From positions 1 through 31,927 of the IMG/VR virus record IMGVR_UViG_3300042691_033222: a DNA stretch of 31,927 nucleotides; one strand, written 5' to 3'. Positions 10,384 to 29,960 of this stretch are shown in pieces; position 1 is the first letter of the stretch, and every line of letters starts with the position of its first letter. Source of the stretch: a virus. The notes under the pieces are model-generated. The model saw nothing but the letters and a program-made list of their open reading frames with translations. It searched no databases and had not been told where the DNA came from. Position numbers and translations under genes: made by a program.

Positions 10384-10964
10384 GGTACTATCTCCATTAC
10401 TATACCGTTACTAACAGCGTTCTCTTGATTGTCTTGGCCGGCACTAGCAGCTACCCTGTTGAAGAAAAATGTATAGGCAGCCCCATTTTCACTGGATCTC
10501 ACCGCAGGTGCATAGGTTCTTGAATTAGTATTACTTGGCCTAATATAATATTGAATCCAATACATGGTGCCGGTACTGTCAGTGTTGTTGTCATACCAAG
10601 ATGTAACATATCCACTTTGCAGATTCACGTTGCCAACCACATTGTTAAATCCTTGATAGCCTGAATCTGTGATCAATGCACCGTCGCGATGGATCAAAAA
10701 GTTTACGTTATGATTGCTTTCACCTGCAATGCTCCAACGAAACAGCAGATAGTTGTTGGCACTTTTTGGAGCAATGGTTAGATTCAAATCAGTTATGGTT
10801 GTACCTATACCCGAGTTGGGAGCGGAGTAAGTGGTAATTACGTCCGACCGTGCCGTGCGCACTTGTATCACTGATCCACCGGGTCTAATGTTTGTAGCTG
10901 AAGGAACTGAGATGGCTGTCTGTCCGTACACAGGTGACACATTGCCTACAATAATCTTGCTCAC
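10380..10964 (-). CDS. Fibre adhesin, member of a tandem paralog set (GTG start)
   Basis: A 194-residue protein beginning at a GTG that overlaps the upstream stop (the stop lies at 10961). It carries GGSVIQVRTARSD, IAPKSANNYLLFRWSIAGE, NFLIHRDGALI, GYQGFNNVVGN, then RTYAPAVR and NGIVMEIVP. These blocks match those of the 9808-10383 protein and the end of the 10961-12499 protein in the same order, so all three share a domain of about 160 residues. The function as a receptor-binding unit is inferred. Confidence 0.65.
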   Translation of the reverse strand: MSKIIVGNVSPVYGQTAISVPSATNIRPGGSVIQVRTARSDVITTYSAPNSGIGTTITDLNLTIAPKSANNYLLFRWSIAGESNHNVNFLIHRDGALITDSGYQGFNNVVGNVNLQSGYVTSWYDNNTDSTGTMYWIQYYIRPSNTNSRTYAPAVRSSENGAAYTFFFNRVAASAGQDNQENAVSNGIVMEIVP

Positions 10965-12499
10965 TGTGCAATCTCCATTACGTAGCCTGCGCTGACTGAG
11001 ACTTCGTATGAATCTTGTCCGCTGCTACCATAGGTTCTGTTAAGACAAAAACTTGTGCTGCCGGCATTGGCTATTGCAATGGCAGGTTGATAGGTTCTAG
11101 TTTGAATACCATATGCTGGTATCAAATATTGAATACATAGGTTAGACATTGTAGAGTTATCGTCTCCTCGATCGTATCTTGACATAGCATAACCTGCAAA
11201 GTTAGCCAGTCCTTTTTGATTGTTAGTACCTTCAAAACCTGGTTGCACAATTACCTGTCCGTCTTGAAAAATTCGCCAGACCGTATCGTGATTTACTTCG
11301 CCGTTTATCATCCAACGACACAAAATCAAACTAGTAGGACTTTTAGGAGTAATAGTAAGGCCAAGTTCACCTATGGCAGTGCCAGGACCGGCCGGTACGG
11401 AATAAACTGTTCTATTGTCTGTTCTAATATACTTGACCTGTATGATAGTTCCCGGCACAGCCACCACACCACCGTTGTCTACAGGAATCTTCTGATCTTC
11501 AGCGGTTAAAGGATATCGTACAACCACAATACCGGAACCACCGTTACCACCTTGGTTGTTGGCATTGTAATGGCTTCCGCCACCACCACCTCCGCCGGTG
11601 TTTGTGCCTCCATTGCCGCCCGGAGTATTGGTCTGCGAGCCAGTGCTGCCTCCACCGCCCGGACTGCCATTGTTGTATCCCAGTCCGCCTGAAGTGGTTC
11701 CTACTGCTCCGCCGCCACCGCCGCCTATGCCACCGTTACCGCCATTGATACTGTATCCCGAACCACCTCCACCACCGCCCCAGTAGTAACCAACGCCAAG
11801 AATGTCACTGTATTTTCCAGGTCCACCATCGCTGAAAAAAGTGGAAGGAATACCAGCACCACCTGCACCACCACCGCCGCCACTGTAATACTGTCCGCCA
11901 CCTTGGCCACCTGCATAGCCTTGTCCAGCAGTACCAGCACCACCAGATCTTGTGCCACCGTCACTGTATCCGCTGGCGCCACCACCTGAACCACCACTGT
12001 TGCCTGTGGGTCCTGGTGTGTATTGATAGTAGCTGCTGCCGCCGGCTCCTCCGCCCACAGCGGTTAGACCAAAAATTGAAGAATTGCTGCCATTGTAGGC
12101 CGGTTGTGTGAATTGATGTGCGGTAGGCTGTCCTGATGTTCTTCCTGCAGGCCATTGACCTCCGCCAGGCGCACCTTGACCGCCTGCACCCACAACCACC
12201 ATGTAGTCGCCGCGACTCACGGTAAACTTGCCTGTGAGAACTCCGCCTCCTCCACCACCACCGCCCATGTCCATACCACCGCCACCACCACCACCAACAA
12301 TTAGGTAGTCAACTATGCCATTGGTTCCTGGACTGTTCACACTAAACCTACCATTAGCAGTAAAAATTTGAACTTGATACTGCACGCCATTTACAGTTAT
12401 GGTATTGGTAATATCACCGCCGTGAGCGTTTACAGGCACAAATGAGCTGGCTGCTGTGGTGTTTGCTTGTATGTTTCCAACTGTGAGTATGCTAGGCAT
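10961..12499 (-). CDS. Glycine-rich tail adhesin with paralogous C-terminal domain
   Basis: A 512-residue protein in two parts. The N-terminal about 340 residues are a glycine-rich phage domain: a short beta start (VNGVQYQVQIFTANGRFSV), VDYLIVGGGGGGG, then many GGGG runs ending with GGNGGSGIVVVRYP. Glycine-rich segments like this in phage adhesins are thought to pack as polyglycine helices with exposed loops. The C-terminal about 160 residues are the same domain as in the two genes that follow it in the operon (GTIIQVKYIRTD to GYVMEIAQ). The ATG abuts the upstream TAA stop (TAAATG). The GGG-rich part makes a long proline-rich antisense reading frame that should be ignored. Confidence 0.75.
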   Translation of the reverse strand: MPSILTVGNIQANTTAASSFVPVNAHGGDITNTITVNGVQYQVQIFTANGRFSVNSPGTNGIVDYLIVGGGGGGGMDMGGGGGGGGVLTGKFTVSRGDYMVVVGAGGQGAPGGGQWPAGRTSGQPTAHQFTQPAYNGSNSSIFGLTAVGGGAGGSSYYQYTPGPTGNSGGSGGGASGYSDGGTRSGGAGTAGQGYAGGQGGGQYYSGGGGGAGGAGIPSTFFSDGGPGKYSDILGVGYYWGGGGGGSGYSINGGNGGIGGGGGGAVGTTSGGLGYNNGSPGGGGSTGSQTNTPGGNGGTNTGGGGGGGSHYNANNQGGNGGSGIVVVRYPLTAEDQKIPVDNGGVVAVPGTIIQVKYIRTDNRTVYSVPAGPGTAIGELGLTITPKSPTSLILCRWMINGEVNHDTVWRIFQDGQVIVQPGFEGTNNQKGLANFAGYAMSRYDRGDDNSTMSNLCIQYLIPAYGIQTRTYQPAIAIANAGSTSFCLNRTYGSSGQDSYEVSVSAGYVMEIAQ

Positions 12500-13535: not shown

Positions 13536-13908
13536 TCAAAACCTCTTGATCGATTTCACCGTCCCCGGGCACTGCCATGGGTAACCATGTTGTCATTTGT
13601 TGTTCATTGTTAACAATTCTAGCGTTTCGTAACACCGTACCATCAATGCTGTCCTTGACATGGCGTAAAAACTCTGGATCAAGTCTGTCAAACAACCATT
13701 GAGTTAAGAGATCTTTGGTTACCTGTTCAACTGGCACAAAATTTGGTTGATTAGGATCATGTTCAAGAGGTGTGGTACCTGCCACCGATGCATAGACTCC
13801 ATTGGGATTTTTCCCCGTATAAACCCATGAAATATCACGAATCACCCATTTGGTGCCTTGATCAATCACAGTTAAATTAAAACCAGTTATGTTAAACTTG
13901 TAAATCAT
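13516..13908 (-). CDS. Conserved phage protein of unknown function
   Basis: A 130-residue protein that starts MIYKFNITGFNLTVIDQG and contains WVIRDISWVYTGKN, a negative run around VEQVTKDLLTQWLFDRLDPE, and the end EVLNAYLSR. No enzyme motif was seen. The mixed strand/helix pattern differs from the fibre genes, so it may be an accessory or assembly factor. It overlaps the glycine-rich gene upstream by four bases and the zinc-ribbon gene downstream by 20, so it is translated in the fibre operon. Similar proteins occur near fibre genes in other phages, from memory. Confidence 0.6.
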   Translation of the reverse strand: MIYKFNITGFNLTVIDQGTKWVIRDISWVYTGKNPNGVYASVAGTTPLEHDPNQPNFVPVEQVTKDLLTQWLFDRLDPEFLRHVKDSIDGTVLRNARIVNNEQQMTTWLPMAVPGDGEIDQEVLNAYLSR

Positions 13909-14834
13909 GATGGAACTCTATATCTAATTACAACTATACCTGCTGTACCTGCGCCTTGACTACCGCCAGTTGCTCCTGTGCCATATCCACTACCGGCCCA
14001 TCCAGCCCAGGTATAACTAGGTCCTGCTGCGGTGCCGCTTTGCCCGCCGTTGTTGCCATTGGCTGAATATACCACTGATACTCCTGATGCTACGTTGCTA
14101 CCACCGCCGCTGGTATTGCCGCCATTTTGTCCGTTGCCACCAAACCAACCACCGCCACCAGCTCCATATCCACCGCCATCACCGCCGCCATATCCAAAGC
14201 CGGCTTGGCCTGATAGTGTGCCTGTGTTGCCAATTCCTTGCACGTTGCCGCCGCACGCTGGCGAATCATTTGCTGGTCCTTCATTTGATCCACCACCTCC
14301 GGCACCGCCTCCTGCTACCACTCTAGCGCCGCTTAGATCCACTGTGGAGAAAAATAAACCGCTAAGGCCACCACTACCACCGCCACCTCCTGAACAACAG
14401 CTGGAGCCAGCAGCGCCGCCTGCTGCGCCAAAATTAGCACCTGCACTACCGTTGCAACCACCGCAGCAACAGCCAGTGCCACCACCTCCACCACCGCCTA
14501 CACTTGCATACCAAGTGCCTGCTACCGCAGTGACATTGGCTACCATGATTGCACCAGCTCCGCCACCTGCACCATTGGGACCATCATTTCCGCCAGCTCC
14601 GCCACCTGCACCCACACACAGCACTTCTAGAGTGTTGAAATCTGATGAACCTGTGCTGGAGATCGTAAAAGTTGTGTTGCCTGTGGAAGTAAAGGTATGC
14701 ACTTTGTAATTAAACCCGCCGCTGGACACTGTGCTTTCAGTGCCACCTGTGGCCACAATCGCGCTGATGTTGGTGGTCATTGTGGCGTTGGCCATTGTGT
14801 ATTTTTGCGATGTTCCAATCAATCCAACAGTCAT
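13905..14834 (-). CDS. Glycine-rich adhesin with cysteine clusters
   Basis: A 309-residue protein. Residues about 40-70 have the same start as the glycine-rich domain of the 10961-12499 protein (FNYKVHTFTSTGN, LEVLCVGAGGGAG), followed by G-rich runs and the end TAGIVVIRYRVPS. It differs by carrying cysteines inside glycine runs: GTGCCCGGCNG, SSCCSGGGG and SPACGG. These could bind a metal or form disulfides in the extracellular tail, both inferred. It is otherwise a receptor-binding adhesin candidate. It overlaps the genes on both sides by four bases. Confidence 0.72.
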   Translation of the reverse strand: MTVGLIGTSQKYTMANATMTTNISAIVATGGTESTVSSGGFNYKVHTFTSTGNTTFTISSTGSSDFNTLEVLCVGAGGGAGGNDGPNGAGGGAGAIMVANVTAVAGTWYASVGGGGGGGTGCCCGGCNGSAGANFGAAGGAAGSSCCSGGGGGSGGLSGLFFSTVDLSGARVVAGGGAGGGGSNEGPANDSPACGGNVQGIGNTGTLSGQAGFGYGGGDGGGYGAGGGGWFGGNGQNGGNTSGGGSNVASGVSVVYSANGNNGGQSGTAAGPSYTWAGWAGSGYGTGATGGSQGAGTAGIVVIRYRVPS

Positions 14835-16066: not shown

Positions 16067-19000
16067 TTACATTCCTGCTAATAAAAATGGGTTGAGTATA
16101 CCAGCACCTGAAATGTTGCCAGTAATTGATACATTACTTACGGTCATTACAGAAGTATCAATAGAAATTGGGACACCTGTACTACCTGCTGCGTCTTGAT
16201 AGAACACACGGAAGCTATTTGCAGAGTTGACGTCAATATTCCAGGTTGAGTTGCCTTGCCCTGTAAGCCCTGAGACCCCTTTCCATCCTAGAACAACCTG
16301 TCCACCTTCTGGTGCCCCTGTGAAAGAATTTATTATGATGTTGTTGTTGGCGCTTACTAAACCAGTGGTGTAGATTCCATTGTCAGAAATCACCAAAACA
16401 TTTGCCGACGAACCAACATTTGCTGCGATGTTTCCGCTTGAAGTTGTGACTCTTAGGTTAGATGAGCCGCTGTTGATATTTGCTACGCTAGTAATCACAC
16501 CTGTGAGCAATGCGCCGTTACCAAAGATGTAGTTTCCTGTAACGTTGCCCGTAGCCGTTAATGCACCTGATGCGATAACATTGTTGGCATAGATATTGTT
16601 CCACTGTAGACTTGAACTACCAATGTCATAAGAAGCATTAGCTGCGGGCAACAAATTAGCACTAACGTTGCCAAAAGGATTACCGTTTTCAATACTGTAC
16701 ACAGAAGCCATCTGTGCCCACTGGCTACCAGATCCATCGTCAAAGTATAGATACAGAGTACCATCAACAACGTCAATCCATTGATCACCAATGCTGGGAT
16801 TAGGAGGTGCTGAAGCCCCAACTGTGAGTGTACCACCAGCTGCTAATCCATATTCAAACACCCCTAGATCGTATGCTGATGTCACTGCATCTGTGATCAA
16901 GCCATTGTCTGTGATGCTGGTGGTTCCTTGAGTAACCAAGCCGGCATCGCCACCTGCACCCCATAGTGTACCATCATTGGTGCTGCCAATGATACTGATC
17001 ACTATGTTACCAGTGACAGCATTGCCCAACATGTTGATACCGTTGCCACTTTGTAACTGTAGATTACCTGAGCTATTGCTGGCGATCAGTACTGCATTAC
17101 CTGTGCTGTTGCCTGTAACATTACCTTGTAAATTGATTATACTGTACACCGACGATGCTGTGGCGATGCCTGTCATGTTTACCGCATTACCAAAATAGTA
17201 ATTGGCAGTGATGTTACCGCTGGCCACAATACCCGATGTATCAATATTTCCTGTCACATTGGCGTTGGCAGCTTCAAGCATACCAACCTGAAAATTACCA
17301 TAACTGTTCACAGTGACCAGTTCATTGGTAATAGTAACATTGGTAGCTGCAATCAGTCGGTTGCCGCTGTTGTCATAGCCAACAAAGGCAGATTTTTCTG
17401 AGCCAGAGTAATACCAAAGCTGAGTTCCGCGATCTTTACCATCATCTACTGTGAGCGGCGTGTTATTAGCGCCACGTCCTAGGCCAATTATGGGATCTTC
17501 AACGTTTAGTTCAGTAACGTTTACATAGGTTGTGTTGCCAGATACTGTTAGGTTGCCACCAATCACAGCATCACCAGCAGTGACCAAATTGCCGCCTGTG
17601 ACATTGCCAGTGGCTGATACTGCGCCTGTGGTACTAATGTTTCCACCAGATAGGTTGCCAACCGCTGTGGCATTGCCTGTGGCCTCTAGTGTGGCCACAT
17701 TTGCCAAACCAGCTGTGGTAATGTTACCACCTGTAATGTTACCAGTGGCGTCAACTGCTCCTGTGGTGGTGATATTAGCTCCGCTGACATTGCCTGTGGC
17801 AATCACAGCAGCATTTGACAGCACATTTGCACCCGTTATATTACCATTGGCTGTGATGGCTGTGGTTGCACTCACAGCACCATTGGCAAAGAAGTTTAAT
17901 GCAGTAACATTGGCAGTGGCATTGATTGATCCACCTGTGGAAATATTACCAGCTGCCAAATTACCAGTAGCATCAACGTTGCCGCTGGTCACTAGATTTC
18001 CGCCTGACACATTGCCTGTGGCTAGAACCACACCAGTGGTGTTTAGATTACCACCGCTAACATTGCCAGTCGCAGATATTGTATTAGCTGTTACAGCATT
18101 TGATGCTGATACATTGTTGCCACTGACATTTGCGCTGGCCACTAGATTAGCAGCGTTTACACTGCCAGTTACATTGGCTTCTCCTGTGACATATAGACCT
18201 GTGTTGGCAAACACAGCCACATTGCTAGTGCCATCAATGTTGACTGTGGCATTGCCATTTGCAGACACAATTTTTACGTTGCTCGTACCATTTGCAATTA
18301 ATGTGGTGTCAATGCCAGTGAGCAGGGCACCGTTGCCAATAAAGTAGCTGGCATGCACGTTGCCAGTGACCACAACTTGTCCAGAAGAAATTAAGTTTGC
18401 ACCAGAAATATTAGCAGTGGCATTGATGTTGCCTAGACTGTTTACGTTGCCAGCACCTACATTGCCTGTGGCCTGTACTTCTTCAGTGGTTGAAATATTA
18501 CCGCTGACAATCAAAAATGACAGAGTACCAACTTGTGTAATGTTGCTTTGGACTCCGTCTGTGACTGTGTTAGCTGTGTTTGCATGACCAGTGATATCTA
18601 TACCATAGGTGCCAGACATTCTAGCACTTGGCACTGTGCCTGACGCTAGACTTGATGCATTTGCGTTACCAATGAATTCTGCTGCTGTGACTTTGTTGGT
18701 TACACCAAGGTTACCAGAAACATTGGCCCCGTCTGTAGTAATAGCAAACACATTGGCTACACCACCCACATTGGCAAGAATGTTACCGCCAGAGCTTTCA
18801 ATTCTTAGATTTGAAGAGCCATCGTTGATATTGGCCACACTGGTAATCACGCCAGTCAACAGAGCACCGTTGCCAAGAATATAGTTGCCGCTGACATTGC
18901 CCGATGCGGTGACATTAGCTATGGCATAAACATCAGTCCCTGATTCAATGTAGTTTGCATAGACATTGGCATTGGAAATCAAGTCATAAGAAGTTTCAAT

Positions 19001-22000
19001 TGCCCCGTTGGCTCTAAATATCCATGAATGCTGATTTCCTGCTTGTGTATTAGTCTCAATGTTCACGCCGGTATAATTCACATACAACCAGGCGTAGTCA
19101 TCATTACCAGCAGGATTCAAATTTGCAATATTGCTGGTCCAATACAACTGTGCATAATTGTTTGAATTGATGCTGACATATTGACCATCTGCCGGTGTGA
19201 TCCACAGTGGCGCAGACTCAGTTTTGATATTAGCAGTAACGTTATTACCAAGTATCAGACCTTGGTCAGTTATAGTAATGACATTAGCTGTGCCGTTGAC
19301 ATTGGCTTGAATGTTGCCGTTGGCAGTTTCAATTCTTACATTTGATGTGCCATTGTTTATGTTAGCAACTGATGTAATGATGCCTGTTAGATAGTAACCG
19401 TTGCCCAAGAAGTAATTGCCGCTGATGTTACCATTGGCTGTGAGATTACCACTCAAGGTCATGCCTTGAACATCAATGTTGCCTGTTAATGTTACTAGAT
19501 TGCTGGATTTATCAAACTGGAAAGCTGTGACTGAATTCGCAATACTGTCATCATTAAACACCACACCACGATTAGGACCTTGTACAGCAAGATTACCTGA
19601 AATGTTACCTATTAGGTTGCCAATAAAATATGGAGCAGTTACATTGCCTGTGGCATACACAGGCCCTGATACAGCAAATCCGTTACCATGTTGGAATCTA
19701 CCTATCTCATCACCGGTGTTTGCACCACCGGTTGAGAATATGATATCATTGTTTTCCAAGGTGCTGAGCACAAGATTACCGCCGCCGGTGGTGGTGTTTC
19801 CCGCAACATAAAGATAACCATCGTTAACACCCTGTAATGCAAACGCAGGCTGGTTATAACCAGAACTGTTGATACCCATGTCAATATAGGTATCGTTGTC
19901 AGTGCCATTGTCAGCAGTGGCTACAAAGTCTGTGCTGGCCGCGGATCCGTTGTCTTTGTTTTGTGCTACTAATTGTACATAATTGTTAGCACTGCCAGCA
20001 TATTGGAGGTTGGCATAGGCAGCACTAAAACTCAAATCTTGACCAACACGTACATTACCAATTGCACTTAGATTGCCTGAAATATTAGCAAATCCAGTTA
20101 CAGTGAGATTGCCAGTTGCCACAGTGCCCGCAATGTTGGCCAATCCATTGCTGTTAATGTTTCCACCTGTGATATTTCCTGTTGCGTTAATTGTTGTGGC
20201 TGCTAGAAAACTGTTGGCAGATATATTGTTGGCGGTGATGTTGCCATTGACAATCAAACTTGTACCAGTGGCTGCTCCAATATTGGGCGTTGTCAAATTT
20301 GCACTGGCCTTGACAACAATATTACCAGTGCCATCAAACGCTGTGGTATCGTTGTCTACCTTGGCTGTGATAATTGTGCCTGCTACATTTATGCCATTTC
20401 CACCAGTGTAAACCTGTGTGCTGCTAAACTGAGCAAATGCAATGTTGCTGGTACCAAAAGTAATTACACCGGTTGGCGAATCAACGATGTAGGCTGAGCC
20501 TTTGTTGACGTTACCTGATGACACATAGAAATAATCATTGATAGCAAGTGTATTAGCACTGGCTACCCCATAAGTATCAGTATCTGAACTACGAGTAATC
20601 ACTGTGGCGTTAGACCAAACATAGACACCGTTTAGTACCGCATTCGCTTCGTCTTTTACTAAGATTCTTGTGTTTGCTGTTTGTACATTTGCCGTATCAA
20701 TCAGGTTAAATGATCCGGTTGTGGTAATTGTAGCGCCTACTCCGTTACCTGCTCCGTTGGGCTGTGAATAGGTAATTGTGCCACCTGTGGTGGTAGCCAA
20801 GTTAGCAGTGGTAGCTGCTACTACTGCCTCGTGATATGAGATAGCAGTACTCACCAAGTTATCAACATAGATCTTGGTTGCTGCATCTTGATCTTGTATA
20901 GGATTTGCAACACTGTTAATATAGTTGTTATCTAAGACAATGTTGCCAGTGCCTCCTGGATTCAACTCAATGTTATTGTTGCCGCTTGTGGTAATTACAA
21001 TACCAGTAGAGCTGTTGATATTGGCTGTGACAATATTAGCAGCAATCACATTAGCGGTGGTGTTTATGTTACCAGTTGCAACAACTTGTCCACTGGTAAT
21101 TAGATTACCACCTGTGACATTGCCAGTAGCAACAACTTGCCCAGCAGTGTTTAAATTTCCGCCAGTGACATTACTGGTTGCTGTCACGGCACCACCAACT
21201 GTTAAATTGCTGGTTACATTGGCATAACCTGCCACATCAAGATTACCTTGGCCGTCTTTGCCAACTTGCAAATTATTCTCAATGCCTACACTGCCAATTT
21301 CACCGTTGTTGACCAATACAATAGCAGTGTCACCGTTTTGGCTGTAAATATAACCGCCATTAACAATGATGTTACCACTGATCAAACTAACATTACCTGG
21401 TTCAAACAACAAGCCAGTGGTAGTTCCGGTGGTTATTTTGTTGCCAAGAATCTCAACATTGGCAGCGGCAATGATGTTGTTGCCATAGATGTTGCCAGTG
21501 ACATTGGCTAAGCCGGCTGTGATCAAGTTACCACCAGTTATGTTACCTGTGGCTATTAGTTGTCCTGTGCTGCTGACATTGCCAGCATTGACATTGCCGC
21601 TAATATTAGCAGATGTAGCTGTGATTAGCTGTGTGGCAGATATGTTGTTGCCTGAAATATTAGCCGCACTTGTAATACTACCAGTAGCATCAATCAATCC
21701 AGCAGTGATTAAGTTGCCACCAGTAACATTGCCGGTAGCTGTGATCACGGCGTTTGAAACTAGATTTCCTCCAGTAACAGTGCCGTTGGCATTGATCAAC
21801 CCTGCTGTGGCAATATTACCGCCAGATAAGTTTCCTGTTACAGTTAAGGTTTGAGCAAAGGTCACAGGACCTGACACAGACATTGCACCAATGTTGGCGT
21901 TGCCTGCCCAGACATTTCTCCATTGGAAAGTGCTGGTTCCCAGTGTGTAGGTATTGCTGAATCTTGGATTTGCACTACCCCAAATAACCAAATTGTTTGT

Positions 22001-25000
22001 GGCAGGTGTAAGATTCAGGTCTGATCCACCAAGACTGCTGACATAACCAGTGATCAAGGTACCAGCAGCATTGGTCAAACTAATAGTAGGACCGGCTTTG
22101 TCAAACGTAAACAAAGCACTGCTTGATATTAGACCATTGTCATTGAACATGACCTGTCTATTTGCTCCTGCTGCAACAAAATTGCCAGATATGTTGGCAC
22201 TGCTTGTGATATTGCCTGTGGCTGACACTATGCCAGCCGTGATTAAATTGCCACCAGTGATGTTACTAGAGGCTGTGATCAAACCTGGTGTAGTGATATT
22301 ACCGCTGGCTATGTTGCCAGTAACATTTACATTGCTGGTGATGTTGCCTGTGAAACTTGTAGTACCGGTTACTGCTAGAGTACCAAGATTAGCAGTACCA
22401 GCGGTTGTGATATTTCCACCAATGATATTGCCAGACGCTGTGACCACATTGGACGATTTGTCAAAAGTAAACGCAGCACTACCTGCTAGAACATCGTTGT
22501 CATTGAACTGTATTTGGGTGTTCGCACCACCGGCATCAATGTTACCTTGGATATTTCCAATAAAGGTGTGCGCTGTAACATTACCAGTAAACGTGGCAGC
22601 AGTGGCTAGTACATTGTTAGCATTGACATTGCCGCTGGCTGTGACGTTTTCTGTGGTGACATTTTTAACAAAAGCGTTGCCAAAATAAGACGTAGCGTTA
22701 CCAATTGAACCAGTGGCATTGGTGCCAAAATTAACAATAGCCTGTGGTTGATTTCCAGTCACTGCCAGGCGGTATGCACCAGCTAGACCATTTTCGTTGT
22801 TGTAATTTAAAGTGAGATTTCTTGAGCCGTTTGGTCCCAATAGATATCCACTGCCGCCAATTTGCACACCACTCAAAGCATCATAGCCGGTATCAGGAAT
22901 CAGACTAATACTGCCATTGTTGGTTATACGAGAATTAGATCCTGTTCCTGTCCAGCCAAATTGAGCTGCTGTGATTACATTGCCGGCGCTGACGTTGCCT
23001 GTGGCTGTGGCAGTTTGAATTGATAGATTGCCTGCTTCAACGTTGCCAAAATTATTAACAGTGACTATCTCACCGGTGATTGATACATCTTTGGCCAACA
23101 GCAAGTTACCTGAACTGTTGTCATATCCAAAGAAAGCAGATTTCTCACTGCCAGAATAATACCAAAGCTGAGTGCCTCTATCTTTACCATCATTGTTGGT
23201 CAACGGAGTGTTGTTGACGCCTCGACCAAGAGCAATTATAGGATCTTCAACATTTAGGTCTTCAACGTTTACATAGACTAGATTGCCATTGACACTAAGA
23301 TTACCATCAATCTGTGCATCTGAAGTTACAGTTAGAATACCACCAACCAATAGGTTACCAGCTACATCAATTGAGTTGGCGGTGACCTTTCCTGTGGTGT
23401 TTATATTTGCGCCACTGACATTGCCAGTGGCCACAACCTGTCCTGTGGTGTTTATATTTCCGCCACTGACATTGCCTGTGGCTGATACCACACCTGTGGT
23501 GTTGATGTTTGCACCACTGATGTTGCTAGAACTAGTGATGGCACCCGTAGCAGCAACTTGACCTGGTGTACTGATGTTGCCGGCAGCAACATTGCCAGTG
23601 ATGTTTAGATTACTAGTGACATTTCCTGCGAAGCTTGAAGTATTGGCTACAATCAAAGTGCCAAGATTGGCAGTGCCAGCGGTAGTGATATTACCACCAG
23701 TGATGTTGCCTGTGGCTGATACAACACCCACGGTGTTAAGATTGCCACCAGTGATGTTACCTGTGGCTGATACAACACCCACGGTGTTTAAATTAGATCC
23801 TGTGACATTACCCAAAGCACTGACTAGACCAGTGGTGTTGATATTAGCGCCACTAACATTGCCTAGAGCACTTACAACTCCAGTGGTGTTAAAGTTGGCT
23901 CCGCCCACATTGCCTGAAGCTGATAGCACTCCAGCAGTGATCAAATTACCACCAGTGATGTTGCCAGTGACAGATGCCACGCCAGAGGCATTCAAAGACA
24001 CTGCTGATAGATTAGCAGATGCAATTAGATTGGCAGCTGATAGATTTCCAGACACAACTGCTGCATTGGTACTTTTGTCAAAGGTAAAACCATTGCTGCT
24101 GTTGGCCAAACCAGAATCATTAAACACCACACCTGTGTTGCTGCCAGGCACTGTGAGGTTGCCACTGATATTACCTGCGAAATTGCCTAGGAAATATGAA
24201 GCAGTGATATTGCCAGCAGCAGTGATGGTACTATCAGATACAGTGACATTGCCAGTTTTTAAAATGTTACCAGTGATATTGCCAGTGGCCAGCACAGTGA
24301 GTGATGACACTGTGTTACTTGCTGTTAAATTAGTGGTGTTAACTGTGACTGCATTAACGTTGCCAATGTTGGCAGTGCCATTGGCAGCTGAAATTGTACT
24401 GACTGTTAGCAGTGGAGTTGATACTAGACTTGACGCGGTAACAGTGTTAGCCTGAACATCAGTTGCCACCAAACTCTGTGACACATTGATATTGCCATTT
24501 AGATTTAGACCACTGGGAGTCACAGTAACTACATTGGTACCAGTGACTGTGAGAGTGATATTGCCGTTTACATTGGCAATGCTTAGATTGGTGTTTCCCC
24601 AGATCAATGCGCGAGGAGCTTCGGCAACAATACCTGTTAACAGACTACCATTACCAATAAAGTAGTTGCCAGTGATATTACCTACGCTATCAAATCCACC
24701 TGTGCCTAGATATAATGTGTTGTAACGTGCGCTGGGAGTGCCAAGATCATACACATTGTCCAGTCTTGGCATCACTGTGCTGTTGGTTTGTACTACCCCA
24801 ATTCCGCGAGGCGCAAGTATTATGTTGCCATTGAGCTGGGAAGTAGAAATCGTGTTGTTGGCAATCTGTATGTTGCTGCCAACAGGACCAGCCTGATAAA
24901 TTTCAGTGAAATTCTCGTTGGTCTTAATAAACGCAGTGCGTAATGGATCACCATCACCATTGTCTGGCTGCGATCCTACGTTGATTATTTGCTGTGCCAT
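16067..25000 (-). CDS. Giant repetitive tail fibre protein, 2977 residues
   Basis: The largest gene in the window. The first about 36 residues (INVGSQPDNGDGDPLRTAF, then NENFTEIYQ) are the N-terminal module common to fibre proteins of T4-like phages and probably attach it to the virion. Long stretches are tandem 17-residue repeats of the form SATGNVTGGNLNTTGVV, expected to form a long beta-solenoid or trimeric fibre shaft. Folded islands interrupt it: two copies of a YVNV..LNVEDPII.LGRG module (about residues 565-660 and 2485-2580), a segment around residues 1370-1570 with EAVVAATTANL, ILVKDEANAVLNGVYVW and FAQFSS, found in other phage fibres, and PSIGDQWIDVVDGTLYLYFDD near residue 2740. The AGGA site and GATAAATA late box precede the ATG. 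No cysteines or enzyme motifs were noticed. Confidence 0.9.
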   Translation of the reverse strand: MAQQIINVGSQPDNGDGDPLRTAFIKTNENFTEIYQAGPVGSNIQIANNTISTSQLNGNIILAPRGIGVVQTNSTVMPRLDNVYDLGTPSARYNTLYLGTGGFDSVGNITGNYFIGNGSLLTGIVAEAPRALIWGNTNLSIANVNGNITLTVTGTNVVTVTPSGLNLNGNINVSQSLVATDVQANTVTASSLVSTPLLTVSTISAANGTANIGNVNAVTVNTTNLTASNTVSSLTVLATGNITGNILKTGNVTVSDSTITAAGNITASYFLGNFAGNISGNLTVPGSNTGVVFNDSGLANSSNGFTFDKSTNAAVVSGNLSAANLIASANLSAVSLNASGVASVTGNITGGNLITAGVLSASGNVGGANFNTTGVVSALGNVSGANINTTGLVSALGNVTGSNLNTVGVVSATGNITGGNLNTVGVVSATGNITGGNITTAGTANLGTLIVANTSSFAGNVTSNLNITGNVAAGNISTPGQVAATGAITSSSNISGANINTTGVVSATGNVSGGNINTTGQVVATGNVSGANINTTGKVTANSIDVAGNLLVGGILTVTSDAQIDGNLSVNGNLVYVNVEDLNVEDPIIALGRGVNNTPLTNNDGKDRGTQLWYYSGSEKSAFFGYDNSSGNLLLAKDVSITGEIVTVNNFGNVEAGNLSIQTATATGNVSAGNVITAAQFGWTGTGSNSRITNNGSISLIPDTGYDALSGVQIGGSGYLLGPNGSRNLTLNYNNENGLAGAYRLAVTGNQPQAIVNFGTNATGSIGNATSYFGNAFVKNVTTENVTASGNVNANNVLATAATFTGNVTAHTFIGNIQGNIDAGGANTQIQFNDNDVLAGSAAFTFDKSSNVVTASGNIIGGNITTAGTANLGTLAVTGTTSFTGNITSNVNVTGNIASGNITTPGLITASSNITGGNLITAGIVSATGNITSSANISGNFVAAGANRQVMFNDNGLISSSALFTFDKAGPTISLTNAAGTLITGYVSSLGGSDLNLTPATNNLVIWGSANPRFSNTYTLGTSTFQWRNVWAGNANIGAMSVSGPVTFAQTLTVTGNLSGGNIATAGLINANGTVTGGNLVSNAVITATGNVTGGNLITAGLIDATGSITSAANISGNNISATQLITATSANISGNVNAGNVSSTGQLIATGNITGGNLITAGLANVTGNIYGNNIIAAANVEILGNKITTGTTTGLLFEPGNVSLISGNIIVNGGYIYSQNGDTAIVLVNNGEIGSVGIENNLQVGKDGQGNLDVAGYANVTSNLTVGGAVTATSNVTGGNLNTAGQVVATGNVTGGNLITSGQVVATGNINTTANVIAANIVTANINSSTGIVITTSGNNNIELNPGGTGNIVLDNNYINSVANPIQDQDAATKIYVDNLVSTAISYHEAVVAATTANLATTTGGTITYSQPNGAGNGVGATITTTGSFNLIDTANVQTANTRILVKDEANAVLNGVYVWSNATVITRSSDTDTYGVASANTLAINDYFYVSSGNVNKGSAYIVDSPTGVITFGTSNIAFAQFSSTQVYTGGNGINVAGTIITAKVDNDTTAFDGTGNIVVKASANLTTPNIGAATGTSLIVNGNITANNISANSFLAATTINATGNITGGNINSNGLANIAGTVATGNLTVTGFANISGNLSAIGNVRVGQDLSFSAAYANLQYAGSANNYVQLVAQNKDNGSAASTDFVATADNGTDNDTYIDMGINSSGYNQPAFALQGVNDGYLYVAGNTTTGGGNLVLSTLENNDIIFSTGGANTGDEIGRFQHGNGFAVSGPVYATGNVTAPYFIGNLIGNISGNLAVQGPNRGVVFNDDSIANSVTAFQFDKSSNLVTLTGNIDVQGMTLSGNLTANGNISGNYFLGNGYYLTGIITSVANINNGTSNVRIETANGNIQANVNGTANVITITDQGLILGNNVTANIKTESAPLWITPADGQYVSINSNNYAQLYWTSNIANLNPAGNDDYAWLYVNYTGVNIETNTQAGNQHSWIFRANGAIETSYDLISNANVYANYIESGTDVYAIANVTASGNVSGNYILGNGALLTGVITSVANINDGSSNLRIESSGGNILANVGGVANVFAITTDGANVSGNLGVTNKVTAAEFIGNANASSLASGTVPSARMSGTYGIDITGHANTANTVTDGVQSNITQVGTLSFLIVSGNISTTEEVQATGNVGAGNVNSLGNINATANISGANLISSGQVVVTGNVHASYFIGNGALLTGIDTTLIANGTSNVKIVSANGNATVNIDGTSNVAVFANTGLYVTGEANVTGSVNAANLVASANVSGNNVSASNAVTANTISATGNVSGGNLNTTGVVLATGNVSGGNLVTSGNVDATGNLAAGNISTGGSINATANVTALNFFANGAVSATTAITANGNITGANVLSNAAVIATGNVSGANITTTGAVDATGNITGGNITTAGLANVATLEATGNATAVGNLSGGNISTTGAVSATGNVTGGNLVTAGDAVIGGNLTVSGNTTYVNVTELNVEDPIIGLGRGANNTPLTVDDGKDRGTQLWYYSGSEKSAFVGYDNSGNRLIAATNVTITNELVTVNSYGNFQVGMLEAANANVTGNIDTSGIVASGNITANYYFGNAVNMTGIATASSVYSIINLQGNVTGNSTGNAVLIASNSSGNLQLQSGNGINMLGNAVTGNIVISIIGSTNDGTLWGAGGDAGLVTQGTTSITDNGLITDAVTSAYDLGVFEYGLAAGGTLTVGASAPPNPSIGDQWIDVVDGTLYLYFDDGSGSQWAQMASVYSIENGNPFGNVSANLLPAANASYDIGSSSLQWNNIYANNVIASGALTATGNVTGNYIFGNGALLTGVITSVANINSGSSNLRVTTSSGNIAANVGSSANVLVISDNGIYTTGLVSANNNIIINSFTGAPEGGQVVLGWKGVSGLTGQGNSTWNIDVNSANSFRVFYQDAAGSTGVPISIDTSVMTVSNVSITGNISGAGILNPFLLAGM
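23702..23803 (-). repeat. Two near-identical 51-base tandem units
   Basis: Units at 23702-23752 and 23753-23803 differ at only a few positions and encode consecutive 17-residue fibre repeats. They are the most alike of many 51-base-period units in the giant gene, most others having diverged. This shows the period at DNA level and suggests recent duplication or gene conversion. Confidence 0.8.
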
Positions 25001-25051: not shown

Positions 25052-26956
25052 TTAGCCGGTAGAATATCGGCGTATGATTTGCCTTGGATAAGCTAGACCT
25101 GCACTAGGGCGTAGCCACCAGCGTTTTTGAGGCCAAACGTTGCCATTTATGGGTCTATCGTTGTAGTAGCCCATGAACAGATTCTGAGCTCCTCGCAGGC
25201 CTCTTTCACTCACAGGACCCGGTGGCAGTGGGGTTCCAAAGTCTGGAATCACACCTTCTTGCGCATAGTATCGAGCCCAACGATAAGCGTCCATTTGGCT
25301 CATGTTGGGGTATATCTCGCACAGAGAAGCAATAATACCCATGACTTGTGGACTAGCCATGCTGGTACCAGTGAGTTTTGACATGAAAAAACTAGCATTT
25401 CTTGGGTCAGGTACTCCGCTGGTATATGGTGCCATGATACCAGTTCCTGGTGCCCAGACTGTGATTCCACGGCCTGCACTGGATGTTTGTTGTACCTGCT
25501 GATTGACAGTTTGATCAATGTTACCTGTAACTATTACACCTTTGAAGCTGTCTGTACCTGGAGTACCTGTTTCAGTTGAAGCTGGTACTGGAAATTGATT
25601 ATGATACCTTGCAGCGTAAAGCACAACAGTGCCAAAAGTAGCATAGGCCACATTTAAATTGTTGTTAAAATCAGGATCTCCGCTGAGTACACCTGCTTCG
25701 CCCCACTGGTTACCTGCTGCTGCTCCCCAGATTATACCCTCGTTCATGCCATCAATAATAGCAGCTGAAGCTGCTGCATCTTGCAGAGTATAGAAAAACA
25801 GAATAACACCATATACATTGGCATATTCAGCATAGACCTGAATACCGCCATTATAGAAGTTGGTTAAAGTCCAGTTCCCGTTGTAAGTGGCCTGCAACGA
25901 CGTTTGGCCCGCAGGGGGACTGGCAGGATGATTCTGTATCGTGCCCCGGTAATCAATTCGATTACACATCAAGATGTTGTTGCTTCTTGCGAATGTGTTG
26001 CCAAACAAACCAAAACTCATGTTTACCACAGTGGGATTTTTGATACCTGTGACAGGATTACGAGTTTTAACGCTGTTGTGCCAATAGCGAATATAGTTTA
26101 CCAGCTGTGTTAGGTTTGGAGTGCTAGTGCCATTGGTTTGTTCACCATAGGGCGAAATATTGTAAATGGTACTATCTCTGGCCCATCCACAGGTGTTACC
26201 TGCCATGATACCACCAACGTTATAACCATGTCCGTTGTTGCCTGCAGAACCTGCACCATAGTTATACACACCTGCTGGTTGTCCTGTCACAGCTGGGTTG
26301 TATGCCCACCAGTTAATCTGATTGATTCGTGATCCGCCCGACCCATCGGCATTTCTGGCATATTCTGGATGATTTCTATCCATGTTGCCATCAAATACCA
26401 CTACGTCAACATTTTTTCCTGTGCTGGTCAATGTGATAGTGGCACTTTTATTTGGCTCAGATCCGTCACTGCCCCAGTTTGGCAACGTGGTCCTGTTCCA
26501 ACAGCGCAGCAGACCCCAGTTTTTCATGTCGCTGGTTGTGGTACCACTTTTATCCCAAAACGCACTGAACTGTGATCCCAATGGTCTTGGTTTGATTCCC
26601 AAGAACTGTGGTTCAACTTCAACGGCTATCACTCTAGGATCTTGCTCAAGACGTGCTGCTTCAATTGGAGTGATAAGATAGGTTGTACTCCGGCACAGTG
26701 GCATTCGATCAATGCATTCTACCACTCGATCTGGTACATAGCCTCGACTACCTGGACTTTCCATTTCATCATAGAAATTGTCCTGTACGTCATAGCTGGC
26801 CAAGGTAATCACGTGAGGATATTCTGTAGTAGCATCCATCTGCAAGGGTTCAACATACCCCAAGGTTGCTTTGGCATGTTCCATGAGAGCTTCAGGGCTA
26901 GGATTCTCTCCTAGTTGTTTGACTAACTCTTCTTCGGATGCGGTTCTTTCAATCAT
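25052..26956 (-). CDS. Subtilisin-like serine protease (S8 family)
   Basis: A 634-residue protease with a complete triad: D189 in VDVVVFDGN, H243 in NGHGYNVGGIMAG, and S532 in LTGTSMASPQ. The oxyanion asparagine is N416 in GAAAGNQ. Residues about 93-116 (YLITPIEAARL, DPRVIAVEVE) resemble the end of an inhibitor I9-type propeptide, so it may be made as a self-inhibited precursor. There is no signal peptide or membrane segment. It sits between fibre genes and shares TAATG with the upstream fibre stop, so it is made with the tail fibres. It might cut fibre precursors or host surface proteins, inferred from context. The C-terminal about 70 residues lie beyond the catalytic domain. Confidence 0.9.
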   Translation of the reverse strand: MIERTASEEELVKQLGENPSPEALMEHAKATLGYVEPLQMDATTEYPHVITLASYDVQDNFYDEMESPGSRGYVPDRVVECIDRMPLCRSTTYLITPIEAARLEQDPRVIAVEVEPQFLGIKPRPLGSQFSAFWDKSGTTTSDMKNWGLLRCWNRTTLPNWGSDGSEPNKSATITLTSTGKNVDVVVFDGNMDRNHPEYARNADGSGGSRINQINWWAYNPAVTGQPAGVYNYGAGSAGNNGHGYNVGGIMAGNTCGWARDSTIYNISPYGEQTNGTSTPNLTQLVNYIRYWHNSVKTRNPVTGIKNPTVVNMSFGLFGNTFARSNNILMCNRIDYRGTIQNHPASPPAGQTSLQATYNGNWTLTNFYNGGIQVYAEYANVYGVILFFYTLQDAAASAAIIDGMNEGIIWGAAAGNQWGEAGVLSGDPDFNNNLNVAYATFGTVVLYAARYHNQFPVPASTETGTPGTDSFKGVIVTGNIDQTVNQQVQQTSSAGRGITVWAPGTGIMAPYTSGVPDPRNASFFMSKLTGTSMASPQVMGIIASLCEIYPNMSQMDAYRWARYYAQEGVIPDFGTPLPPGPVSERGLRGAQNLFMGYYNDRPINGNVWPQKRWWLRPSAGLAYPRQIIRRYSTG

Positions 26957-28002
26957 TATGTTTCCAGTTGCAACACAGTTAATGTAACTGTGAGTGTAGC
27001 AGGTGCACCACTTAGATTCGTGATAGTAATGGGCACAGCGTTTGAAACCGGATTGTCATCATTGAAGCCAATGGCCGCTGGGCTAACAGTCACAGTGTTT
27101 GCACCATTGGTAATAATTTCTGCTATGACGCCTGCACCTGGTTGAGGATCTGTATCCTGATCCCGTGTAGAGTCGGCTGTTCTAGCAGCAGTGCTGGTGT
27201 ATACTCTTACCCAACTAGCCGCACTAGTGGAAATTTTATAAATTGCGTAGCCTTTGTAACCAGTTAGATTAGCGTTTACACTCACAGCATTGGATACTGG
27301 ACCAACTGTGGTACTGATATTGGCACGATTTCCTGCGCCACCTCCGCCACCTGTTACCACACCAGTTAGAAAAGCACCATTGCCTAGAATAAATGTGCCG
27401 CTGACATTGCCTGTGGCATTTACATTGCCAACGTTGATATTGCCTGTGTGAGTGGCTGAACCAGAAGTTGAAATATTACCTGCTGTGATATTACCTGTCA
27501 CAGTTGCACTGGTCAAAGCCGCATTGCCAGCTAATAAAGTTGTGGTTGAAACATATGGTGATGTCACTGCATTACCAGCATTGACATTGTTAACCACTAA
27601 CTGCGAACCATCTAAATAGGCACTGCCAACTGCTACTTGTGTTGTTGCATTAACCAAACTTGCATTGAGAGTGGTCACATTGGCCGCACCTGCTGCGGTG
27701 ATATTACCACCCGACGTGATGTTGCCGCCTGCTGCAATGGTCTGGCTAGCGATCATGTGCGAACCTTGAACGTTGCCAGTTGCACTGATATTACCACCTG
27801 AACTTATTCTACCAGCAAAATTTTGTTGTCCAGTACCAGTTGCGTTGAGATTACCAGTGATGTTAACTGTGATACCATCAATGATATTGGTCACTGTGGT
27901 ACCAACGCGATTCCATGCACCGGTGGTACTGTTCCATTGATAGGTTATATTTCCTACATTGGCCTGCTGACCATTAACGGGACTAACGGGAAAGAATGAC
28001 AT
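26956..28002 (-). CDS. Tail fibre protein with GNITGGN-type repeats
   Basis: A 348-residue fibre. The start MSFFPVSPVNGQQANVGN with ITYQWNSTTGAWNRVG is the same kind of small aromatic module as at the head of the 12500-13270 protein. Residues 45-215 are GN-repeats ending in FILGNGAFLTGV, the recurring shaft-end motif. The C-terminal about 130 residues form a separate domain (GYKGYAIYKISTSAASWVRVY, then ARTADSTRDQDTDP, and TVTLTVLQLET at the end), probably a small beta domain at the tip. Its ATG and the previous gene's TAA share one base, as do its own TAA and the protease ATG. Confidence 0.75.
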   Translation of the reverse strand: MSFFPVSPVNGQQANVGNITYQWNSTTGAWNRVGTTVTNIIDGITVNITGNLNATGTGQQNFAGRISSGGNISATGNVQGSHMIASQTIAAGGNITSGGNITAAGAANVTTLNASLVNATTQVAVGSAYLDGSQLVVNNVNAGNAVTSPYVSTTTLLAGNAALTSATVTGNITAGNISTSGSATHTGNINVGNVNATGNVSGTFILGNGAFLTGVVTGGGGGAGNRANISTTVGPVSNAVSVNANLTGYKGYAIYKISTSAASWVRVYTSTAARTADSTRDQDTDPQPGAGVIAEIITNGANTVTVSPAAIGFNDDNPVSNAVPITITNLSGAPATLTVTLTVLQLET

Positions 28003-29372
28003 TAGAATCTCCCCACTGCAATTGTAATAGTCTGTATTGAATTATCAAGAATTGTCATCATGCTTTTACCCAGTACGCAGCCTGGTCTATATAAACTGTC
28101 ATTTACTCTTTCAGCCACCCCTGGTAAGTCACTTGTGGTCAGCAAAGTGCCTTTGTCCACCGGACCTCTCACTTTGCAGTTTACTTTGCCAGTGAGTGCA
28201 ACTGCTACTCCGTCAACACCAGAGTTCATTAGGTAACTGGGCTTTTCACTGACTACTCCTGCCACAGCAGTGTCATGTGTACGAGAACTAATTGTAATTT
28301 CCTGTTCACCACCAAAAATTACCACTGTACCCGGTTCATATTTGTTGTCTGATGTATAGTTTTCTGCTAAGTCAGCATAAAGTGCTGACGTTGAAGTAGC
28401 AAACACACGATTGAAATAATTGCTGGCCGAACCAATGTTGCCTGTGGAATTAGAACCAAGGTTAGTGATGTTGCCTACTGCTAGACCTAGATTGGTTATC
28501 TGCGCCATGTTAACGTTGTTTACATTGGCAAAAATGTTACCGCTGGTAGATGGAATGGTAACAGTTGATAGACCATTGATAATAGTGCTAGGATTAGTAC
28601 TGATGCCTGTTAGCAAACTACCATTGCCAATGAAGTAAGTGCCTGCGATATTGGCCGCGGCATTTAGATTTGTTACTGTAATGGTATTGGCTGTAAATGA
28701 TCCATTAACATCTCGTTGTACCACTGTGTTGGCCAGGGTGCTTGCTGATGCAGGAGGTGTAGCCACCCCACTGATATCCACCCACTGATCAGTATCACCA
28801 TCATCTACATATTGATACACAATACCGTTGACGGTGTTAAACCAAAAGTCACCAGCAGTGGGAGAACTTGGTGCTGTGCCCTGAGCATCCCATTTAACAG
28901 TTCCGCCGCTGACAAATGGCACTCCATTGGCAAAATAGTAGTTGTCTGTTAAGATATTGCCGGTTGTAACATTACCTGGTAAAATAGCACCAGTGGTGGT
29001 CAACAGCATTACATTAGCAACACCGCCCACGTCCATTTGAATGTTGCCAGATAGATTGGGCAAATCAACTTTAGATGTACCGTTTTGAATACGATTGCCA
29101 GACGCATTACCAGTGGGAATGTTGGTAAGTCCTGATCCGTCACCAATAAAAACACCAGTGGTAACAAAGTTACCAACTGACGTAATAGAGTTACTGGTGA
29201 TATTGTTTGCAGTGATGTTGGCAGTTGGGAAAGCAACAGTGCCCGTGGCAGTCAACCCTGAAGTGCGTATATTGCCTGCGACATTAACCGTGTTGGTTGT
29301 AATGTTGACGTTGTCCGTCGCTTGTATAGAGACAATATTATAGTCACCGTTGACACGTTTGTAAGTTGACAT
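28002..29372 (-). CDS. Tail fibre protein with autoprocessing-type C-terminus
   Basis: A 456-residue fibre. After a start with YNIVSIQATDNVNITTNTV come GN repeats, a GVFIGDGSGLTNI module, a SPTAGDFWFNTVNGIVYQY module and further repeats. From about residue 320 the C-terminus (ALYADLAENY, YEPGTVVIFGG, VAGVVSEKPSYLMN, GKVNCKVRGPVDKG, then AVGRF) is a close paralog of the 7370-8383 fibre's end and resembles Peptidase_G2-type fibre chaperone domains. The ATG follows directly and in frame after the TAG stop of the 29373-29960 gene, with an AAGGA site and an exact TATAAATA late box upstream. It starts the minus-strand fibre cluster. Confidence 0.78.
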   Translation of the reverse strand: MSTYKRVNGDYNIVSIQATDNVNITTNTVNVAGNIRTSGLTATGTVAFPTANITANNITSNSITSVGNFVTTGVFIGDGSGLTNIPTGNASGNRIQNGTSKVDLPNLSGNIQMDVGGVANVMLLTTTGAILPGNVTTGNILTDNYYFANGVPFVSGGTVKWDAQGTAPSSPTAGDFWFNTVNGIVYQYVDDGDTDQWVDISGVATPPASASTLANTVVQRDVNGSFTANTITVTNLNAAANIAGTYFIGNGSLLTGISTNPSTIINGLSTVTIPSTSGNIFANVNNVNMAQITNLGLAVGNITNLGSNSTGNIGSASNYFNRVFATSTSALYADLAENYTSDNKYEPGTVVIFGGEQEITISSRTHDTAVAGVVSEKPSYLMNSGVDGVAVALTGKVNCKVRGPVDKGTLLTTSDLPGVAERVNDSLYRPGCVLGKSMMTILDNSIQTITIAVGRF

Positions 29373-29375
29373 CTA
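29373..29375 (-). other. Only TAG stop in the window, in frame with the next ATG
   Basis: The codon following KQKDC is TAG and the next codon, at 29372, is the ATG of the 456-residue fibre gene. If TAG were read by the CTA-anticodon tRNA at 30904, the two reading frames would join into one protein of about 652 residues. Confidence 0.85.
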
Positions 29376-29960
29376 ACAATCCTTTTGCTTATTTATACGA
29401 GCCAGAAACAGCGACATTTCAAGGTGCTCAAGATTGCTCAAACGGTCTAATTCAGCGTGTTTCATTGTGGTTTCCCCGTATACCCTGGTCCAGCGCACAG
29501 TGGGAAAATCTGATATCACTGTGGTTATCTGCTTGATCCAGTTGCCCGTGAATGTGGGAGGAGTTCCACGTGCTTTGTAGAATTCGGTACCTGCATAAAC
29601 GTTGTTGAATTTGTTATCCGTTGTTGGTCCAAGATCATACCCCAGCAAATAGATCTGCGTGTGTCCGTCAATAGCTGCTAGTGCAGCGGCCACTGGTCCT
29701 GAGCTGTTTCCGTAGTATTTTTTGGGGATCTGCCTTGCTCCAGAATTTGGATAGCATCTACGAGTGTAGAATGTTTTACGCTGACTGTAGCCAGAATCTT
29801 GAATTCGTCCACTGATCGGAGCGTCAGTGGCCACCAGCACGTCTGGTTCGTAATCTTTGTAGAGTGCATTGCAGCCATAAATTGAGCCGTAGTGGTGTAA
29901 CCAGGCAAGATCAAGTCCTTGTCTACTAACACCATTTGCCAGTGCAAAAGCTATAGTCAT
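29373..29960 (-). CDS. Rossmann-like / DUF115-type phage protein
   Basis: A 195-residue protein. AFALANGVSRQGLDL, YGCNALYKDYEPDVLVATD, a SGPVAAALAAIDG segment and IYLLGYDLG form a pattern of alternating strands and helices like nucleotide-sugar-binding Rossmann proteins of the DUF115/MptE-like or sialyltransferase-like type. No catalytic residue can be assigned. It might modify sugars, but the family assignment is by eye. Translation should be controlled by the hairpin at 29961-29995, which hides the GGGAGGA ribosome binding site. It ends in the only TAG stop among the 29 intact genes, directly in front of the fibre gene's ATG. Confidence 0.6.
   Translation of the reverse strand: MTIAFALANGVSRQGLDLAWLHHYGSIYGCNALYKDYEPDVLVATDAPISGRIQDSGYSQRKTFYTRRCYPNSGARQIPKKYYGNSSGPVAAALAAIDGHTQIYLLGYDLGPTTDNKFNNVYAGTEFYKARGTPPTFTGNWIKQITTVISDFPTVRWTRVYGETTMKHAELDRLSNLEHLEMSLFLARINKQKDC
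29390..29397 (-). promoter_or_regulatory. Exact T4 late promoter box for the first fibre gene
   Basis: TATAAATA on the minus strand, the exact T4 late consensus, inside the last codons of the Rossmann-like gene and about 17 bases before the ATG at 29372, with AAGGA in between. It gives the fibre cluster its own late start, separate from read-through of the upstream gene. Confidence 0.75.

Follow-up and report, generated by a model that had tools for sequence, protein, structure and literature searches.

The occurrence of a subtilisin-like protease gene among phage fibre genes raises the question of what the enzyme cuts, the fibres beside it or something on the host, and how it is connected with its neighbours. 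We addressed this for a gene in a 31,927-nucleotide viral stretch (IMG/VR record IMGVR_UViG_3300042691_033222, positions 1 to 31,927; hereafter the window). The gene occupies 25052..26956 on the minus strand, a strand that the first-pass annotation did not give. As the ORF list and translation show, ORF 26956..25052 is intact and encodes 634 aa from an ATG start, which together with a match to Pfam Peptidase_S8 bears out the original description of a complete subtilisin-like protease between fibre genes. Directly upstream lies the gene for a 348-aa fibre (26956..28002, minus strand), whose stop codon shares one base with the peptidase start (TAATG at 26956); a further upstream fibre gene of 456 aa (28002..29372, minus strand) likewise shows a one-base overlap. 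The coupled starts proposed for this cluster therefore hold for the upstream fibre but not for the large downstream fibre gene, an ORF call of 2977 aa (16067..25000, minus strand), from which the peptidase gene is separated by 51 bases. That gap contains an ATAAATA motif, whose frequency in the window is not above chance. The protein recurs at 100% identity in two other IMG/VR contigs (one of them 172 kb long), which makes an artefact of assembly unlikely.

Pfam assigns the product to family S8 (Peptidase_S8, PF00082; E=1.5e-13, 51 bits against a cut-off of 21.8, residues 180-555), and this is the sole Pfam family match that passes for it. An AlphaFold2 model built from a 49-sequence alignment (mean pLDDT 86.7) was compared with the PDB using Foldseek, which returned proteinase-K-like enzymes first (8c4z, E=4.9e-17; 2b6n, TM-score 0.83 on the target). 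This fold makes up the catalytic domain (residues 146-566; 25259..26521, minus strand), which has two variable insertions at about residues 331-395 and 421-470. The hallmarks of S8 enzymes, Asp, His and Ser in that order with an oxyanion Asn, are all present, and the four residues lie exactly where they had been placed: D189 (26390..26392), H243 (26228..26230), N416 (25709..25711) and S532 in the motif GTSMASP (25361..25363), all on the minus strand. Just before the catalytic domain, residues 46-118 (26603..26821, minus strand) form a predicted prodomain with the strand and helix order E-H-E-E-H-E, which is the I9 topology. The I9-like prodomain suggested earlier is thus supported by the modelled topology; Pfam I9 (PF05922) gives no match in the window protein and matches, weakly, only 2 of 49 members (best E=0.015). 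The N-terminal extension ahead of it (residues 1-45; 26822..26956, minus strand) comprises two predicted helices and is found in close relatives only. No hydrophobic stretch occurs at the N-terminus, in agreement with the claimed lack of a signal peptide.

Other identities were considered and rejected. The T4 prohead protease (gp21) was ruled out because S8 is the only family match and the gene lies within a fibre cluster, and a Peptidase S74 or intramolecular chaperone because no such Pfam match exists in the peptidase or its partner, and the peptidase is encoded by a separate gene. Pfam 2C_adapt also matched 17 of the 49 relatives (E=0.006 at best); these matches were set aside as probably spurious, since the core of that family resembles an NPxTGR stretch inside the S8 domain.

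We evaluated the conservation of the active site in an aligned set of 98 sequences, comprising the window protein and 97 loci, two of which (L007 and L008) are identical to it. The Asp and His are invariant in all 98, and the Asn and Ser in every sequence that covers the site (96/96 and 93/93, respectively). Retention of these residues in relatives down to about 27% identity is strong evidence of selection on catalysis, and sequence conservation indicates that the gene very probably encodes an active serine peptidase.

Relatives of the peptidase were found by tblastn at 25-35% identity in 37 phage records, every one a cyanophage or a marine single-virus genome, and at least 590 stretches in IMG/VR encode relatives. 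The window phage itself is a T4-type virus whose tail-sheath stabiliser is closest to those of jumbo phages like Atu_ph07 and PA5oct. A psbA-type gene was not found in the 172-kb contig; given this and the affinity of the tail-sheath stabiliser, a cyanobacterial host is not supported. The family also includes some unusual architectures. In L012 (7367-9877 and 9944-12514) and L014 (5447-7966), the main protease gene is followed immediately downstream by one or two additional S8 paralogues; they have the serine motif GTSAACPG and end in repeated beta domains without the C-terminal tag described below, and about 20 more contigs hold relatives of this type. In six S8 members (L246, L257, L266, L271, L255 and L268), the catalytic domain is interrupted or preceded by inserted domains of 300-400 aa, some of which include a plastocyanin-like stretch (YYxCxFHxSM).

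The fibre encoded directly upstream ends in a domain of ~128 aa (26959..27348, minus strand), modelled as all-beta with high confidence, which we term the partner domain. It lies at the exact fibre C-terminus and is conserved where the rest of the fibre is not; partner fibres span roughly 90 to 1000 aa, some of them being cut by contig ends. The association with the peptidase holds from both sides. Among loci picked by the peptidase only, 90 of the 92 with upstream context have the partner domain in the adjacent upstream gene, and copies picked by the partner domain only are followed by an S8 peptidase in 73 of 75 cases, one exception being followed by an S53 peptidase and the other (L172) by neither type. 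When 84,980 bacterial and archaeal genomes were scanned, the partner domain was confirmed five times, with S8 next in four. The domain has no match to a Pfam family. For the partner fibre the Foldseek matches, to the HFTV1 turret (E=0.0024) and to the beta domain at the C-terminus of the subtilase Tk-SP (E=0.005), were all weak, and these modelled likenesses serve as a lead only. The complete genomes of PSS2, S-CRES1 and Sf-CH1b contain the partner domain and give no hit to Peptidase_S8, a Pfam model that picks up the S53 type too. As a separate observation, the partner-domain fibre of S-BM3 (L178), Sf-CH1b (L181) and PSS2 (L180) is followed by an unrelated, untagged non-peptidase protein, and in S-BM3 an S8 domain occurs separately, within a frame of 2650 aa that lies further upstream.

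The peptidase carries a second conserved feature at its own C-terminus. Nearly all members end in RPxSGxx[YW]PRxxIRR, often in two copies, within the last ~30 residues. In the window protein these residues (605-634; 25055..25144, minus strand) form a conserved tail that is disordered and of low pLDDT in the AlphaFold2 model, and the tag is RPSAGLAYPR (616-625; 25082..25111, minus strand), a form of RPxSGxx[YW]PR and a candidate docking peptide. We tabulated tag and partner domain for distinct peptidases whose C-terminus is complete and whose upstream context is available: 129 have both, 22 have neither, six have the partner only and none has the tag only. L026 and L134, two of those six, terminate in a variant of YPR, three (L059, L073 and L185) have an added domain or extension, and L137 is without the tag. 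Because the main S8 group forms a single clade, its many loci are not independent; clustering at 50% identity, a guard against this along with the S53 case below, gave 18 clusters with both features, one with the partner only and six with neither. A DNA scan with one codon-degenerate form of the tag produced 48 matches, of which 45 are C-terminal, all in S8 proteins. Two of the matched loci (L086 and L096) were already known S8 members. In 43 of the 46 newly classified loci the tag lies 11-13 residues from the C-terminus; each of these 43 scores as S8, in some cases by the tail alone because contig ends cut the protein; the other three are chance matches elsewhere. The 172-kb contig that holds the locus has the tag in one ORF only. 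The tag and the partner domain are the informative features of this locus, and both had escaped the first-pass annotation.

Further evidence for a link between tag and fibre comes from loci in which the enzyme family differs. In L141 and L182-L191, the gene after the partner domain encodes a kumamolisin-like S53 peptidase (E=9e-31), without a prodomain, as the kumamolisin match begins at residue 31. These proteins end in the same tag as the S8 enzymes, for example RRPATGMVWPRTKTL, except that of L185, whose end is Gly-rich. None of the four catalytic positions varies among the 15 S53 loci. By contrast, the tag is absent from S53 relatives encoded after fibres that lack the partner domain (L192-L195; L196 is truncated). 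The tag therefore goes with the fibre rather than with the family of the enzyme. The tag-and-fibre pair is constant and the enzyme is exchangeable, since one fibre domain can be followed by an S8 or an S53 core with a common tag; this pattern across two families is the best evidence, at the level of sequence, for what would be a physical connection. The S53 proteins of L192-L195 terminate in W-x-Q-x-F, and the fibre upstream of each has a similar end (..GDIWYQTF), possibly a second matching pair of ends.

To place the enzyme on the virion we considered annotated relatives. The S8 relative of S-SCSM1 (SSCSM1_228, QFG06492.1) is labelled 'baseplate wedge subunit (virion protein)' in its record, a label that is record annotation, and the partner-domain protein of the same phage is likewise labelled a virion protein. 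In that record ORF213 and ORF214, which the S-SCSM1 paper names as detected by MS (PMC9602691), share the '(virion protein)' label, and several neighbouring structural genes are without it. The S8 relative of S-SCSM1 is fused to LamG domains (Laminin_G_3) and has no tag, and the partner domain is in another, non-adjacent gene. Another member (L073) is fused to a Gly-rich domain (Gly_rich_2) like those of phage adhesins, and four more (L058, L082, L266 and L271) have long extensions or insertions. Such fusions and extensions, together with the extra paralogues, would fit surface-exposed tail proteins. The gene lies in a tail and fibre cluster with a fixed structural partner, as would be expected of a virion tail enzyme. 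Together these data support the peptidase as a likely component of the virion. The tail role first proposed for it is thus well supported by the fibre-domain pairing, the LamG and Gly-rich fusions and the S-SCSM1 label, whereas the accompanying suggestion of fibre maturation is weakened by the three genomes with a partner domain and no S8 hit and by the S53 replacement.

These data allow us to propose a mechanism in which an S8 peptidase is a tail component, carried by one fibre as a detachable accessory. Given the observed gene overlap, peptidase and fibre may be made together by coupled translation. The I9-like prodomain would help folding and would then presumably be cleaved away and released, as happens in other subtilisins. 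The flexible C-terminal tag, judging from its linkage to the fibre domain, would bind the terminal ~128-aa beta domain so that the enzyme rides on the virion, and this docking step we regard as reasonably probable from sequence comparison. During adsorption the enzyme would most likely cut host surface-layer proteins, as tailspike depolymerases cut sugars. On balance we favour this overall reading, of an exchangeable protease docked on the tail fibre by its tag and most likely acting on host surface proteins; that such proteins are its main substrate, taken separately, has about an even chance. A broader version, in which the fibre-tip domain is a universal socket for the tag and in which phages fit it with one or another of several unrelated proteases (S8, S53, perhaps other enzymes) to match host surface proteins, is put forward tentatively, at a little under even chances.

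The principal alternative is a fibre-maturation protease that cuts the partner or the large downstream fibre during assembly, with the tag as a recruitment or assembly handle. Strict gene pairing and the overlapping start are what such an enzyme would predict, and the partner domain always occupies the exact C-terminus, where cleavable chaperone domains sit in other phage fibres. Maturation is nevertheless rather unlikely, as the domain persists in the complete genomes of PSS2, S-CRES1 and Sf-CH1b with no Peptidase_S8 hit, though the same model detects S53; a peptidase of different chemistry substitutes for S8 behind the same fibre domain; and fusions to LamG or Gly-rich adhesin domains are unexpected for an assembly enzyme. 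For these reasons, cleavage of host surface proteins fits better than fibre maturation.

A protease of the intracellular or lysis stage, merely co-expressed with late genes and sticking to particles, would account for the missing signal sequence. Cytoplasmic synthesis is common to all tail proteins, however, and two-way pairing with one fibre domain, a shared C-terminal tag and fusions to tail-adhesin domains make this explanation improbable. Less probable still, and hardly credible given a triad and oxyanion Asn that are invariant across 97 relatives where covered, is a catalytically dead structural protein for which the subtilase fold is a scaffold. The fold's large variable insertions would suit such a role, and some phage decoration proteins may have enzyme origins, but the S53 replacement retains all its catalytic residues as well.

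The docked protease that we favour can be compared with known systems. Phage-tail enzymes are mainly familiar as sugar-cutting tailspikes, which share with the window peptidase the proposed role of opening the host surface. Tailspike depolymerases cut polysaccharide and are themselves the spike, whereas the window peptidase would act on protein and be attached as a chain of its own. Proteinase K-like and pro-subtilisin enzymes (S8) have the fold, catalytic residues and prodomain topology in common with it; they are cellular, secreted proteins with signal peptides, in contrast to a protein of a phage fibre operon with a docking-type tail. The S53 kumamolisin/sedolisin enzymes of L141 and L182-L191 share its gene position and tag, and differ in family, in their Glu-Asp-Ser chemistry and in having no prodomain. 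Its nearest described counterparts are the proteases of S-H38 (QPB07966.1), Sf-FR1 (XYM58789.1) and S-CREM1 (UYA57622.1), members of the same family at 34-35% identity that directly follow a partner-domain fibre and carry the tag, as in the window; the window protein differs in 45 additional residues at its N-terminus. The S-SCSM1 protein (about 26% identity) also lies within a fibre cluster and differs from the window protein in the LamG fusion, missing tag and partner location noted above.

Some relatives' GenBank records already read 'subtilisin-like serine protease' or 'peptidase', and those of S-H38, Sf-FR1 and S-CREM1 give a name only, with no mention of function, partner or tag. Neither annotated subtilase genes in cyanophages nor tail-borne enzymes as such are new; what is new is the anatomy of the module. 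The literature searched, which covered few subscription journals, yielded no account of the tag or the peptidase-fibre pairing, nor of interchangeable proteases docked by a shared C-terminal tag. If the proposed mechanism is true, tail-docked proteases would be widespread, on hundreds of viral contigs, many aquatic phages would cut through protein layers, and the enzyme would be separable from its fibre. The tag and domain constitute a directly testable binding hypothesis, and a role is suggested for three families listed as of unknown function (phrog_9158, phrog_15343 and phrog_9627).

Other genes of the window were also noted. A 195-aa gene within the fibre operon (29373-29960, minus strand), kept in close relatives, has a weak match to alpha-2,3-sialyltransferase (phrog_4603, E=5e-4). 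Two glycine-rich proteins of the phage-adhesin type with a GIVVxRY motif are encoded at 10961-12499 and 13905-14834 (minus strand), and their domain type is also the one fused to the protease in L073.
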